Shown here: piece by piece, positions 41,089 through 43,616 of the stretch
Layout of the letters: each line of letters begins with the position of its first letter
Position numbering within the stretch: position 1 is the stretch's first letter
DNA from: Arcticibacter tournemirensis
Lineage (GTDB): Bacteria; Bacteroidota; Bacteroidia; Sphingobacteriales; Sphingobacteriaceae
Length of the DNA: 64,000 bases
Reading direction: 5' to 3'
NCBI RefSeq assembly: GCF_006716645.1
Contig: NZ_VFPL01000001.1
Span: forward strand, 62,001 to 126,000
The notes under the pieces: model-generated
What the model saw: only the letters and a program-made list of their open reading frames with translations
Databases searched by the model: none
What the model was told of the DNA's origin: nothing
Position numbers and translations under genes: made by a program

Positions 41089-41565
41089 TTATAAATCCAG
41101 ACTTATCTGGCGTTTAATGCTTTCTTCCAGCGAAATAAATGTTTCCGTGCGCGAAATGCCTTCAACGGTCTGAATATTTTCATTCAGCACCTCCCGAAGA
41201 TGATTAGTGTCGCGACAAATAATTTTAGCAAACATGCTCCAGGCCCCTGTGGTATAATGCAACTCTACGATTTCTTTTATTTTGACCAGCTTGGCTACTG
41301 CATCTTTATAGGTTGAACCTTTTTCAAGATAAATGCCCAGATAAGCACAAACGTCGTACCCGATCTTTTGCGCATCTACAATCAAATTAGAGCCTTTGAT
41401 AATTCCGAGATCCTGCATTTTCTTCATCCGCACATGTATCGTTCCTCCCGAAACAATCAGCTTTTTGGCGATTTCCGTATAGGGGATTGTAGCATCTTCC
41501 ATCAGTATAGACAGGATCTGCATATCCAGATTATCAATTTCTAAATTAACGCTCTTCTTTTCCAT
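41089..41565 (-). CDS. Lrp/AsnC-family transcriptional regulator
   Basis: The start is the ATG at 41565 (MEKKSVNLEIDNLDMQIL, 158 residues). The N-terminal winged helix-turn-helix (about residues 10-60; YTEIAKKLIVSGGTIHVRMKKM) is followed by the ligand-binding RAM domain (about 70-150). Members sense amino acids and act as octamers or similar assemblies. Divergent to it lies the first tRNA-like RNA gene, whose promoter could be within its reach. Confidence 0.93.
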   Translation of the reverse strand: MEKKSVNLEIDNLDMQILSILMEDATIPYTEIAKKLIVSGGTIHVRMKKMQDLGIIKGSNLIVDAQKIGYDVCAYLGIYLEKGSTYKDAVAKLVKIKEIVELHYTTGAWSMFAKIICRDTNHLREVLNENIQTVEGISRTETFISLEESIKRQISLDL

Positions 41566-41641: not shown

Positions 41642-41674
41642 TTTGCAACAAATATCAGATACAGCCTATCTTTG
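41642..41674 (+). promoter_or_regulatory. Promoter of tRNA-like RNA copy 1
   Basis: TTTG at 41642-41645 and TATCTTTG at 41667-41674 are 21 nt apart, a full Bacteroidota promoter. The predicted start is about 30 nt before the tRNA-like fold. Confidence 0.75.
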
Positions 41675-41709
41675 TATAAGACAACCGGAAATACTAGTTG
41701 TTTATACAC

Positions 41710-41816
41710 TGTAGGGTGGTGAAACAGGCAGACACACCTCCTTGTCTCGGTGGCGGAGAATATGGGAAACTGGCGACAGCTAACCACTCCTTGAAGGTTC
41801 GATTCCTTCCCCTACA
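41710..41816 (+). ncRNA. tRNA-like RNA with oversized variable arm, copy 1
   Basis: This 107-nt sequence folds like a class II tRNA. The acceptor is TGTAGGG/CCCTACA (41710-41716 with 41810-41816) and position 73 is G. The D-stem is GTG/CAC with GG in the loop. The T-arm is GAAGG-TTCGATT-CCTTC (41793-41809), which is fully canonical. The anticodon arm would be CCTCC-TTGTCTC-GGTGG, with one T-T mismatch and GTC (41744-41746) at the anticodon position, but T at position 37 is unusual. The variable region is about 39 nt, far longer than in Leu, Ser or Tyr tRNAs, and can form GGAG/CTCC plus an inner CTG-GCGA-CAG hairpin with a GNRA loop. CCA is not encoded. I cannot say whether it is charged or translated. 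Confidence 0.6.
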
Positions 41817-41856
41817 GCTCCTTTCGTTTAATTTAGGTTTATAATTGGTTAGTTTG

Positions 41857-41886
41857 AGCTCTCGCCCATCGGGAGCTTAATTTTTT
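41857..41886 (+). terminator. Terminator of tRNA-like RNA copy 1
   Basis: AGCTCTCG-CCCAT-CGGGAGCT (one G-T pair) is followed by TAATTTTTT. A 40-nt trailer between the fold and this hairpin is shared with copy 2. Confidence 0.85.
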
Positions 41887-42043
41887 AATACACTTCCAGG
41901 TTTTCGCACTCATCCATAATCATTCTCCGACGTTTTGATATTTCCTGCGCAGGATCGTTTCTAAAAATTTATATTTGCCAGAATCTTACAGATTTACCTT
42001 TTAGGCAATCAAGGTTTCTCAGTAAGAACTAACATTCGAAACA

Positions 42044-42796
42044 ATGAAAAGATACTTCTTGCTGATATTTGTATTCATCTCTATTTCTGGCTATGCTCAG
42101 AATAACCTTAATAATTACAGGTATATTATAGTTCCTAAAAAGTTTAGCTTCTTTAAAGAGGAGGATCAGTATAAATTAAATACCTTAAGTAAAGCACTTC
42201 TGGAAGCTAAAGGTTTTACAGTGTATTTTGACAACAGAGAGTTACCTGATGACATCGCAGCAAATAAGTGCAAGGCGCTTAGTTATGAACTACAGGAAAG
42301 AAAAACAATGTTTGCTACCAACCTAACCTTCTCTCTTAAAGACTGTAAAGGCAATGTGCTATATAAAAGCAAGGAAGGAAAAAGCAGGGAAAAAGATTTC
42401 AGGGCTTCCTATACTCTTGCACTGAGAGATGCTTTTGAACCGTTCAACGAAGTTCAGTATGTATATACAGCGCCTGCCGAAGCAACTGTTCAGCAGCAAT
42501 CAAATATTCAAAACGCTGTAACAACCTCCGCAAGCACCCCGGTTCCGCAAACAGCCTCAGAACCTTCAGCAGCAGTGAGTGAAACACTATATGCACAACC
42601 GACAACCAATGGCTATCAATTAATTGACACCACACCAAAAGTGGTTTTAACCCTTCTTAAAACTTCCGTGGAAGACTATTTTATAGGTAGTACAAGTATC
42701 TCGAATGGTATCGTTTTCAAAAAGAATGACAGCTGGATTTTTGAATATTATACAAACGGTAAACTAATCAGCAAGAAACTCCTGATTAAATTTTAA
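42044..42796 (+). CDS. Secreted protein of unknown function
   Basis: A 250-residue protein with a signal peptide (cleavage near GYAQNN). The N-terminal part (YRYIIVPKKFSFFKEEDQYKLN... LSKALLEAKGFTVYF) is a pattern I recall from uncharacterised Bacteroidota proteins. It is followed by a Thr/Ser/Ala/Gln-rich linker (about 150-190) and a short beta-rich C-terminal region ending in LISKKLLIKF. It lies between the two tRNA-like RNA genes. A terminator-like hairpin resembling theirs follows at about 42822-42854. Confidence 0.7.
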   Translation: MKRYFLLIFVFISISGYAQNNLNNYRYIIVPKKFSFFKEEDQYKLNTLSKALLEAKGFTVYFDNRELPDDIAANKCKALSYELQERKTMFATNLTFSLKDCKGNVLYKSKEGKSREKDFRASYTLALRDAFEPFNEVQYVYTAPAEATVQQQSNIQNAVTTSASTPVPQTASEPSAAVSETLYAQPTTNGYQLIDTTPKVVLTLLKTSVEDYFIGSTSISNGIVFKKNDSWIFEYYTNGKLISKKLLIKF

Positions 42797-42909
42797 ACGT
42801 ATTTAACAGTAATAAACGGCTAGTTTGGGCGCTCATATGCGAGAGCTTTTTGTGGATTATTCCAGTGAACTGCATCCACTAAATATGAACTACCCGAAAT
42901 CACTTTTGA

Positions 42910-43290
42910 CAACAGGCGTTATCCTGCGCTCAATTAAAAGCACAATCAGAAAGATCCGACACCATTTTGGCATGGACCTCCTGCTACTTTCCTCCCGAAC
43001 CCTCCTTTCCCGGTGGCAACGCAGCAATGTATCGTTATTTAAAGAACACCATCAGGAGTACAAAATCTCCCGGCAGGAAAAGAGTTATAACGAGTTTCAC
43101 AATTGGTGAAGACGGAAGCATCAGCGACTGCAAAATCTTCCGTGGCCTGAATAAAAAAACCGACAAGCGCATTCTTAAAAGCCTTAAAAATATGCCAGAC
43201 TGGATTTTCCCCGGCATGGATAAAAGACGTACGTCTTATACGCTTCCGCTTTTATTTGAAGAGGGGAGATTGAAGACGCCTGAGGATTAG
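42910..43290 (+). pseudogene. Remnant of a TonB C-terminal-domain gene
   Basis: From the TTG at 42967 the frame encodes 107 residues with the marks of a TonB C-terminal domain: PEPSFPGGNAAMYRYLKN, then ITSFTIGEDGSISDCKI, MPDWIFPGM and YTLPLLFEEG. The frame is open only back to 42910, has no ATG, and lacks the membrane anchor and Pro-rich spacer that a working TonB needs. I take it as a decayed or 5'-truncated copy. A short TTG-started protein is the alternative. Confidence 0.55.
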
Positions 43291-43373
43291 AGCAGATTAT
43301 GAATTGCCAATTCGTTAACATTAGGTTAATATTGTTATTCGATTAATATTTTTTTAATTTTCTTATTGAAATT

Positions 43374-43405
43374 TTTGCAAAACAAAAACATACTCCTTAT
43401 CTTTG
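43374..43405 (+). promoter_or_regulatory. Promoter of tRNA-like RNA copy 2
   Basis: TTTG at 43374-43377 and TATCTTTG at 43398-43405, 20 nt apart. The sequence between the boxes differs from copy 1 while the boxes are kept, which argues that they are under selection. Confidence 0.75.
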
Positions 43406-43440
43406 TATCAACAAGTTCTTTAAAAGACAATATCAAATAC

Positions 43441-43547
43441 TGTAGGGTGGTGAAACAGGCAGACACACCTCCTTGTCTCGGTGGCGGAGAATACGGGAAA
43501 CTGGCAACAGCTAACCACTCCTTGAAGGTTCGATTCCTTCCCTTACA
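43441..43547 (+). ncRNA. tRNA-like RNA with oversized variable arm, copy 2
   Basis: This differs from copy 1 at three of 107 positions. One change turns the GNRA loop GCGA into GCAA, still GNRA. One turns an acceptor G-C pair into G-T, still paired. The third (T to C at the position equivalent to 41763) lies in the variable arm and weakens one possible pair there. The anticodon-position GTC is at 43475-43477. The pattern of changes fits selection for structure. Upstream leader sequence is not shared, so only the RNA, its trailer and its terminator are duplicated. Confidence 0.6.
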
Positions 43548-43586
43548 GCCCTTTCGTTTAATTTAGGTTTATAATTGGTTAGTTTG

Positions 43587-43616
43587 AGCTCTCGCCCATC
43601 GGGAGCTTATTTTTTT
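43587..43616 (+). terminator. Terminator of tRNA-like RNA copy 2
   Basis: The same hairpin as copy 1, followed by TATTTTTTT. The stretch from here to the next gene (about 255 bases) is A+T-rich without visible features. Confidence 0.85.

Follow-up and report, generated by a model that had tools for sequence, protein, structure and literature searches.

In staphylococci, a non-translating tRNAGly serves cell-wall synthesis, where it builds peptide bridges and makes no amino acid. In E. coli, asnC and asnA form a divergent pair, placing an AsnC-type regulator next to an asparagine-making gene. YrlA and other bacterial Y RNAs are non-coding RNAs that mimic tRNAs. Asparagine synthesis on a tRNA is already known: as described in PMC4206432, Bdellovibrio, Deinococcus, Thermus and Staphylococcus aureus use a non-discriminating AspRS to load Asp onto tRNAAsn, the U1-A72 pair of which serves GatCAB, and such systems also have AsnRS, in some cases GlnRS, and in some no AsnA or AsnB. 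The allo-tRNAs (Mukai 2017, reviewed in PMC7609411) are tRNA-like RNAs with unexpected anticodons, some of them GUC; the review gives them 8/4 or 9/3 acceptor/T stems, Ser or Ala identity and an origin in Clostridia, Proteobacteria and Acidobacteria. Here we describe two tRNA-like RNA genes in a window of 64,000 nucleotides (nt) from the Bacteroidia member Arcticibacter tournemirensis (contig NZ_VFPL01000001.1, positions 62,001 to 126,000). Both genes probably encode a dedicated, non-decoding tRNA that would act as the carrier for tRNA-dependent asparagine synthesis under AsnC-like control.

This RNA would share with the tRNAAsn-based systems an Asp loaded by AspRS and a U1-A72 pair for GatCAB. 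In contrast, the carrier there is the decoding tRNAAsn, whereas here it would be a separate non-decoding RNA with the Asp-type loop GUC and a long variable arm. With tRNA-Asp (GUC) the RNA has G34, U35, C36, C38, G73 and G2-C71 in common, but it has U1-A72 in place of G1-C72, has mostly lost purine-37, and carries a long variable arm and a Leu-like D-arm. Unlike those of the allo-tRNAs, its acceptor and T stems are 7/5. Like staphylococcal tRNAGly, it would be a tRNA kept for non-ribosomal use, and like E. coli asnA it stands divergent from a gene for an AsnC-type regulator, although the partner here is an RNA. Its mimicry of tRNA recalls the Y RNAs, without a match in Rfam. A link to Y RNA and Ro60, which a UUGACC motif had raised, was dropped on the same lack of an Rfam match; Ro60 genes themselves were not searched.

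Copy 1 lies at 41710..41817 and copy 2 at 43441..43548, both on the forward strand. The first-pass annotation had placed two 107-nt sequences at 41710-41816 and 43441-43547; these places were confirmed, with G73 following at 41817 and 43548. In line with its description of the cloverleaf parts, both copies have a 7-bp acceptor stem, a 3-bp D stem, a 5-bp T stem, a 39-nt region between the anticodon and T stems, and GTC at the anticodon position with T37, and they differ from each other at three sites within the RNA. In copy 1, the acceptor stem is formed by 41710-41716/41810-41816, the D stem by 41719-41721/41733-41735, the anticodon stem by 41737-41741/41749-41753 and the T stem by 41793-41797/41805-41809, with GTC at 41744-41746 and the variable arm at 41755-41790. 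Copy 2, with GTC at 43475-43477, is 97% identical to copy 1 and scores 123.5 bits with the R1 covariance model. The mismatch reported in the anticodon stem was borne out close to home and not further afield: T29.T41 is present in both window copies and in all 65 rows of our first alignment, whereas the distant alignment has a pair there in 64 rows (C-G 60, A-U 2, G-C 1, G-U 1). The A. tournemirensis genome (G000; 5.66 Mb, two contigs) holds four full copies, the other two being a tandem pair 1.6 Mb away (G000:C1:1729111-1729786) that adds compensatory changes.

BLAST with copy 1 over 60 genomes, its own included, gave matches in 27, partial in some. An exact 24-nt core was found in 76 stretches of named genomes, for example of Pedobacter, Arcticibacter, Solitalea and Hufsiella, and the core stretches and their relatives together gave 76 distinct short-arm copies and 11 longer ones. 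The first alignment comprises 65 of the 76 short-arm copies, near-repeats having been removed by hand. The covariance model built from it was run over 395 class genomes (Bacteroidia) and 201 family genomes. Because ordinary tRNA-length matches (76-84 nt) score up to 61 bits, a genome was called RNA-positive on a match of at least 100 nt at E 2e-10 or better; 9 (class) or 19 (family) candidates were scored per genome, and RNA-negative calls are not firm. Of the class genomes, 66 of 395 were RNA-positive, namely 12/15 Sphingobacteriaceae and 54/380 others. Covarying homologues with the large arm, for which a covariance-model search of Sphingobacteriaceae genomes had been proposed, were found.

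The first alignment has 94.8% of its cells paired, and changes on both sides occur in 10 of its 29 pairs, with the D and anticodon stems invariant. In the distant alignment (65 rows, fitted to the model and hence favouring structure), 97.1% of cells pair and 20/29 pairs have changed on both sides. None of 500 shuffles reached the observed covariation score in either alignment. The acceptor, anticodon, variable and T stems covary, and the acceptor (99.8-100% of cells paired) and T stems (100%) do so with compensatory changes; the decay of the acceptor and T-arm that the first-pass annotation had named as evidence against function was not seen, since both stems keep pairing across homologues. 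The fold of the RNA is real. Support for it comes from this covariation and not from single-copy folding energy, which was unremarkable for the two window copies (z -0.48 and +0.71). The anticodon stem shifts on both strands in distant families (CCCTC/GAGGG, CCCGC/GCGGG, CCGCC/GGCGG and CCAGC/GCTGG). This bears on the idea of an antisense regulator acting through CCTCCTT, a stretch of the anticodon arm that looks like an anti-Shine-Dalgarno sequence and that all 65 rows of the first alignment share. The strand varies together with its partner in other families, which marks CCTCCTT as a by-product of the stem, and we rejected the idea as extremely improbable. A tmRNA-like tag or small open reading frame in the arm was also rejected, as one-base length changes in the type II arm and hairpin covariation oppose coding.

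Standard tRNA finders gave mixed results on the RNA. The Rfam tRNA model, RF00005, gave copy 1 a weak fit of 34.9 bits in the genome search (gathering score 29) and took one of the four copies of the genome, while cmscan with Rfam did not report tRNA over copy 1. Other Rfam families were absent over the RNA at E 1 in the window region and at E 0.5 over 12 loci. ARAGORN made zero tRNA and zero tmRNA calls on the 64-kb window and called 0/277 bacterial copies (not deduplicated); among virus copies of the RNA, described below, it called six short-arm ones as tRNA-Asp(gtc) and one as tRNA-???. These calls bear on the other refuting condition of the first-pass annotation, a standard tRNA model that fits the whole sequence with a normal variable arm. 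A separate tRNA-like sequence on the minus strand at G000:C1:655446-655530 (L162) scores 22.6 bits with RF00005; its T-arm and trailer are similar to those of the RNA, its D-arm is poor, and it may have decayed from such a copy or represent another odd RNA.

According to PMC9976931, the strong Asp determinants are G73, G34, U35, C36 and C38, and GatCAB recognises U1-A72, with G1-C72 and U20a as antideterminants. These positions were tallied over 128 distinct bacterial copies. The first alignment supplied 65 of them and the second 63, after the defective row L241 and one duplicate had been dropped from the latter. All five determinants are present together in 123/128 copies. U1-A72, G2-C71, U35, C36 and G73 each occur in 128/128, C38 in 126/128 and G34 in 124/128. 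The D-loop bases that follow G18G19 are C-A in the first alignment, whereas the distant rows have either C-A or A-A; by our own numbering, this leaves no U20a antideterminant. The base after G73 is C in 87/87 copies. In contrast, purine-37, a mark of decoding tRNAs, is mostly lost (present in 6/128), and U33 is found in 115/128, with G or C in the other 13. By these counts, the bases for AspRS and GatCAB are fixed while the decoding positions 33 and 37 drift. The GTC at the anticodon position is best understood as a site that AspRS recognises.

An unusual translating tRNA, for Asp or, by its large arm, for Ser, had been among the first suggestions. The cloverleaf, the GTC anticodon and G73 would suit such a tRNA, as would the six ARAGORN calls of tRNA-Asp(gtc), but the drift at positions 33 and 37 speaks against it, as does the separate tRNA-Asp carried by 7 of 80 virus stretches. 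Moreover, the A. tournemirensis genome covers all 20 amino acids with ordinary tRNAs; it has one tRNA-Asp(gtc), while Leu is served by five and Ser by four. Bacterial Ser determinants, which in PMC9976931 include C72, C11-G24 and G30-C40, are not in the consensus: A72 occurs throughout, 11-24 is mostly U-A, and the 30-40 pair, C-G in the rows of the first alignment, is U-G in most distant rows and G-C in 7-8 of them. The tRNA-Leu mark A73 is absent as well, all 128 copies having G73. We therefore regard a role in translation as very unlikely. Of the other suggestions in the first-pass annotation, that of a functional tRNA mimic stands, in that the RNA looks functional and would be expected to engage tRNA enzymes; for regulation or a decoy role, the genomic evidence instead favours a metabolic carrier.

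The gene divergent from copy 1 (41089..41565, minus strand) encodes an AsnC-like regulator of 158 aa. Among solved structures its best match is E. coli AsnC (2cg4, 124 bits), followed by one at 76 bits, with E. coli Lrp at 47; in NCBIfam its best match is NF008384 at 175.2 bits, under the cut-off of 227, and the next family scores 72. When the open reading frames of 183 RNA loci, partly non-independent, were clustered, the largest cluster was this Lrp/AsnC-family protein, present at 133/183 loci. By our own tally, 31 of the 133 come from 14 families besides Sphingobacteriaceae. Its position relative to the RNA could be measured at 128 loci: at 127 the two are divergent and 28-238 bp apart, many of them by ~148 bp, and at L183 they are convergent. 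Extra RNA copies, such as the tandem pair of the A. tournemirensis genome, may lack an AsnC-like neighbour inside the examined stretch. As a control, 50 stretches of the same genome around tRNA-model matches (100,520 bp, partly overlapping) held no such protein. Apart from this gene, no neighbour common across families was recognised among the 25 largest clusters, most of them unannotated.

Genome content linked the RNA to GatB. GatB (TIGR00133) was found in 66/66 RNA-positive class genomes compared to 307/395 overall (294 over the cut-off), and in 33/34 further family genomes bearing the RNA. Within Sphingobacteriaceae, counted over the class genomes and 70 selected genomes (G013, G014 and G028, all with GatB, were left out as they had not been searched with the model), 45/46 RNA-positive genomes had GatB against 8/36 RNA-negative ones (Fisher p 1e-13, kinship ignored). 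In one genus (g21), GatB was present in the five RNA-positive genomes tested and missing from three RNA-negative ones. GlnRS, AsnB and AsnA were examined in 80 selected genomes, 42 RNA-positive and 38 RNA-negative. Among the 58 with GlnRS over the cut-off, GatB was present in 29/29 RNA-positive genomes compared to 5/29 RNA-negative ones (p 2e-11, kinship ignored). AsnRS was uninformative as a correlate of the RNA, being matched in 395/395 class genomes (374 over the cut-off).

Two kinds of protein stood out among the matches to TIGR01536 (AsnB) over the cut-off. The first ends at profile position 384-387 (559-578 aa) and, as read from the table, occurs in 0/42 RNA-positive and 16/38 RNA-negative genomes; one example (G021) matches E. 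coli AsnB (1ct9) at 829 bits. The second spans most or all of the profile (mostly ~590-690 aa; 571 aa in G129), and the example from RNA-positive G026 matches a hydroxyamidotransferase best, at 170 bits, with E. coli AsnB at 140 bits. Eight RNA-positive genomes (G000, G004, G009, G023, G033, G037, G322 and G355) have GatB and GlnRS with no AsnA or AsnB over the cut-off, and AsnRS is present in the four examined (G000, G037, G322 and G355). In A. tournemirensis itself, which is one of them, AsnA was not matched at all. In these eight genomes GatCAB is the only known asparagine route that we can see.

As an alternative, asparagine could be made on ordinary tRNAAsn by GatCAB and a non-discriminating AspRS as in Bdellovibrio, and the RNA could be a regulatory decoy or sensor that binds AspRS and GatCAB and tunes their availability when the AsnC-like protein signals asparagine status. 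The tRNAAsn of A. tournemirensis has U1-A72 and G73, the AsnC-like neighbour and the GatB link fit this alternative as well, and PMC4206432 reports 18 genera, some of them Bacteroidetes, with AsnRS, GlnRS and GatCAB and no asparagine synthetase, in which Asn is possibly made on tRNAAsn. The RNA itself has an intact acceptor stem, G73 and an encoded C74, which suggest charging beyond mere binding. The AspRS of RNA-positive G026 (L348:6122-7864), the sole genome examined for this enzyme, was compared at two sites that we take to govern acceptance of tRNAAsn. At the first it has Leu, as does E. coli AspRS; the residue is His in the Pseudomonas Asp/Asn enzyme (4wj3) and Lys in the closest structure, 6wom. 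At the second it has Lys, aligned to the Lys of E. coli, while Pseudomonas has Gly, although gap placement leaves the alignment there ambiguous. By that presumed rule, this one sequence hints that the G026 AspRS does not charge tRNAAsn. We consider the alternative unlikely, while rating it above the others discussed here.

It is less likely again that the RNA delivers Asp or Asn to a transfer reaction off the ribosome, as in cell-wall, lipid or peptide tailoring, in the manner of the non-translating tRNAGly of staphylococci. A non-decoding loop with intact charging elements would suit this use, as would the multiple copies in some genomes. However, a cross-family neighbour other than the AsnC-like gene was not recognised among the clusters described above, and such a role leaves both that gene and the absence of E. 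coli-type AsnB (0/42) unexplained.

The RNA is also found in viruses. A degenerate pattern run over IMG/VR gave 86 stretches, of which 80 were listed; some of the contigs may be proviruses or host DNA. All 80 matched the covariance model, with two matches truncated where the contig stops, and the virus copies are 92-171 nt long compared to 107-175 nt for bacterial copies in the distant set. Among 64 distinct full virus copies, G2-C71 and G73 are present in 64/64, U1-A72 in 60, A1-U72 in 4 and the long-arm motif in 52. A second search, which left loop positions 33-38 free, gave 65 stretches, many already in the first set, and 52 distinct contexts; in all 52 the bases G34, U35, C36 and C38 are kept, and three different bases each occur at 33 and 37. 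Plasmids and INPHARED phages gave no blastn match to a window copy. Virus contigs L383, L388, L438, L386 and L437 also hold tRNA-Leu-like RNAs, which are 106-148 nt long and in some arrays occur several times. Their ends are nearly constant (AGTCAGGTGGCG...CAGGTTCGAATCCTGTCCTGACTA), while very different middles replace the anticodon arm.

The virus copies could also be read as a defence against host anticodon nucleases that attack tRNA-Asp, serving as a decoy or as a spare substrate, with the bacterial copies as related, defence-driven RNAs. The RNA's presence in every listed virus stretch and its loop GUC, invariant over the 52 contexts, would agree with this, as would the company it keeps: 44 of the stretches have other ARAGORN tRNA calls (1-4 calls in 24, five or more in 20) and 7 a separate tRNA-Asp. 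The remaining 36 have no other call, and a defence role gives no reason for the co-occurrence with GatB, for the AsnC-like gene nearby or for the way U1-A72 and G73 are conserved. We give it little credence, as with a role in translation.

The reading as an asparagine carrier is preferred because it is the simplest and accounts jointly for the Asp identity set, U1-A72 and the disappearance of decoding bases, as well as for the tie to GatB, the AsnC-like gene next door and the lack of E. coli-type AsnB. In this pathway, whose chemistry is inferred from the observed RNA family and its genomic associations, the RNA would be transcribed via the divergent AsnC-like regulator when asparagine is scarce and, given its intact acceptor stem, G73 and the encoded C that follows, would be processed and CCA-tailed as a tRNA. 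AspRS would load aspartate through G34-U35-C36, C38 and G73, and GatCAB would recognise U1-A72 and amidate the Asp-RNA to Asn-RNA. The asparagine would then be freed, and AsnRS would charge ordinary tRNAAsn with it. Lacking purine-37, and often U33 too, the Asp- or Asn-loaded RNA would be kept from reading Asp codons.

Several observations weigh against this pathway. G1-C72 of tRNA-Asp, which according to PMC9976931 sets the position of the acceptor end in the E. coli enzyme AspRS, is replaced by U1-A72 in 128/128 bacterial copies; G10 is present in 69/128, and AspRS substrates do not usually have a long variable arm. The pathway does not account for that arm, for asparagine release, for which no enzyme was identified, or for the larger AsnB-like proteins, which occur over the cut-off in 34/42 RNA-positive genomes and might make asparagine. 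AsnA was found in 2/42 RNA-positive genomes (6/38 RNA-negative). Outside Sphingobacteriaceae, GlnRS was under the cut-off or unmatched in 13/24 RNA-positive genomes, where GatCAB is consequently needed for glutamine anyway. One RNA-positive genome (G031) is without GatB, while G017, G453, G496, G261 and G419 have GlnRS and GatB with no intact RNA among the 9 or 19 candidates scored. The AsnC-like gene was not found near asnA or asnB in 20 loci (18 from RNA-negative and 2 from RNA-positive genomes), and the fetched virus stretches held no match to AsnC, GatB or AspRS. The chances seem roughly even that a stand-alone tRNA, no longer decoding and kept solely as the handle for turning aspartate into asparagine, replaces asparagine synthetase in many Bacteroidia, is regulated by the AsnC-like protein and is borne by viruses as an auxiliary metabolic RNA that raises host asparagine.

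Further features of the RNA family were observed in and around its arms. Long-arm copies often bear a GGGUUGACCAC-type motif, and short arms often close with a GNRA-type loop. Pedobacter has a second, tandem long-arm paralogue, and at L010, L039, L044 and other loci a short-arm RNA is followed by a long-arm GGGUUGACCAC paralogue ~140-200 nt from start to start; L063 resembles a deletion hybrid of the two. Most copies have a well-conserved internal loop in the variable arm, GG(R)AYAAA / GCUAAC, or GGGAAA / CUAAC in short arms. We take this loop to resemble the UAA/GAN tertiary-contact motif, and it could make contact with a protein or with the body of the tRNA. At L030 (G017), an RNA that lacks the T-arm and the 3' acceptor strand lies beside an AsnC-like gene, probably through recent loss or an assembly fault. 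At L010, positions 633-700 match the Flavo-1 RNA at 40.7 bits, just under the gathering score of 42.

Each window copy had been credited with a full promoter and terminator of its own. What the sequence shows are consensus matches only. Upstream of copy 1, TTTG-N21-TATCTTTG (41642..41674, plus strand) matches what we take to be the Bacteroidetes-type promoter consensus, and a promoter-like TTTG-N20-TATCTTTG was read ahead of copy 2 (43374..43405, plus strand). The exact pattern TTTG-N21-TAnnTTTG has one match in the window, at copy 1; one or more such matches also turned up in 20 of 100 shuffles. Both copies are followed on the plus strand by a trailer element, AGGTTTATAATTGGTTAGTTTGA (41835-41857 and 43565-43587), ahead of a hairpin terminator, the two together spanning 41835..41880 and 43565..43609. 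The terminator-like hairpins (41854-41880 and 43585-43609) show no excess over chance (2 observed compared to 1.9 in shuffles). Whole or in part, AGGTTTATAATTGGTTAGTTTGA also precedes terminator-like hairpins elsewhere in the genome (L005, L006 and L007), and it may be a general terminator-associated motif. Between promoter and RNA, the leader of copy 2 contains GTTCTTTAAA (43415-43424), which is shared by some other leaders and not by copy 1, and which presumably resembles a boxA antitermination site. When leaders were inspected by eye for an upstream AsnC binding site, nothing claimable beyond the promoter was seen.

The RNA family of Bacteroidia and viruses is apparently undescribed. A separate non-decoding carrier for asparagine synthesis was not found in the open-licence literature searched, which is weak evidence of absence. 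If the carrier reading is true, Bacteroidia annotated as seeming asparagine auxotrophs would make asparagine on a hidden RNA, one that ARAGORN misses in bacteria and that Rfam scans leave unnamed. It would also explain why GatCAB is retained despite AsnRS and GlnRS, a question discussed in PMC4206432. More broadly, it would be a case of a tRNA moved wholly into metabolism, and of a metabolic RNA borne by viruses.

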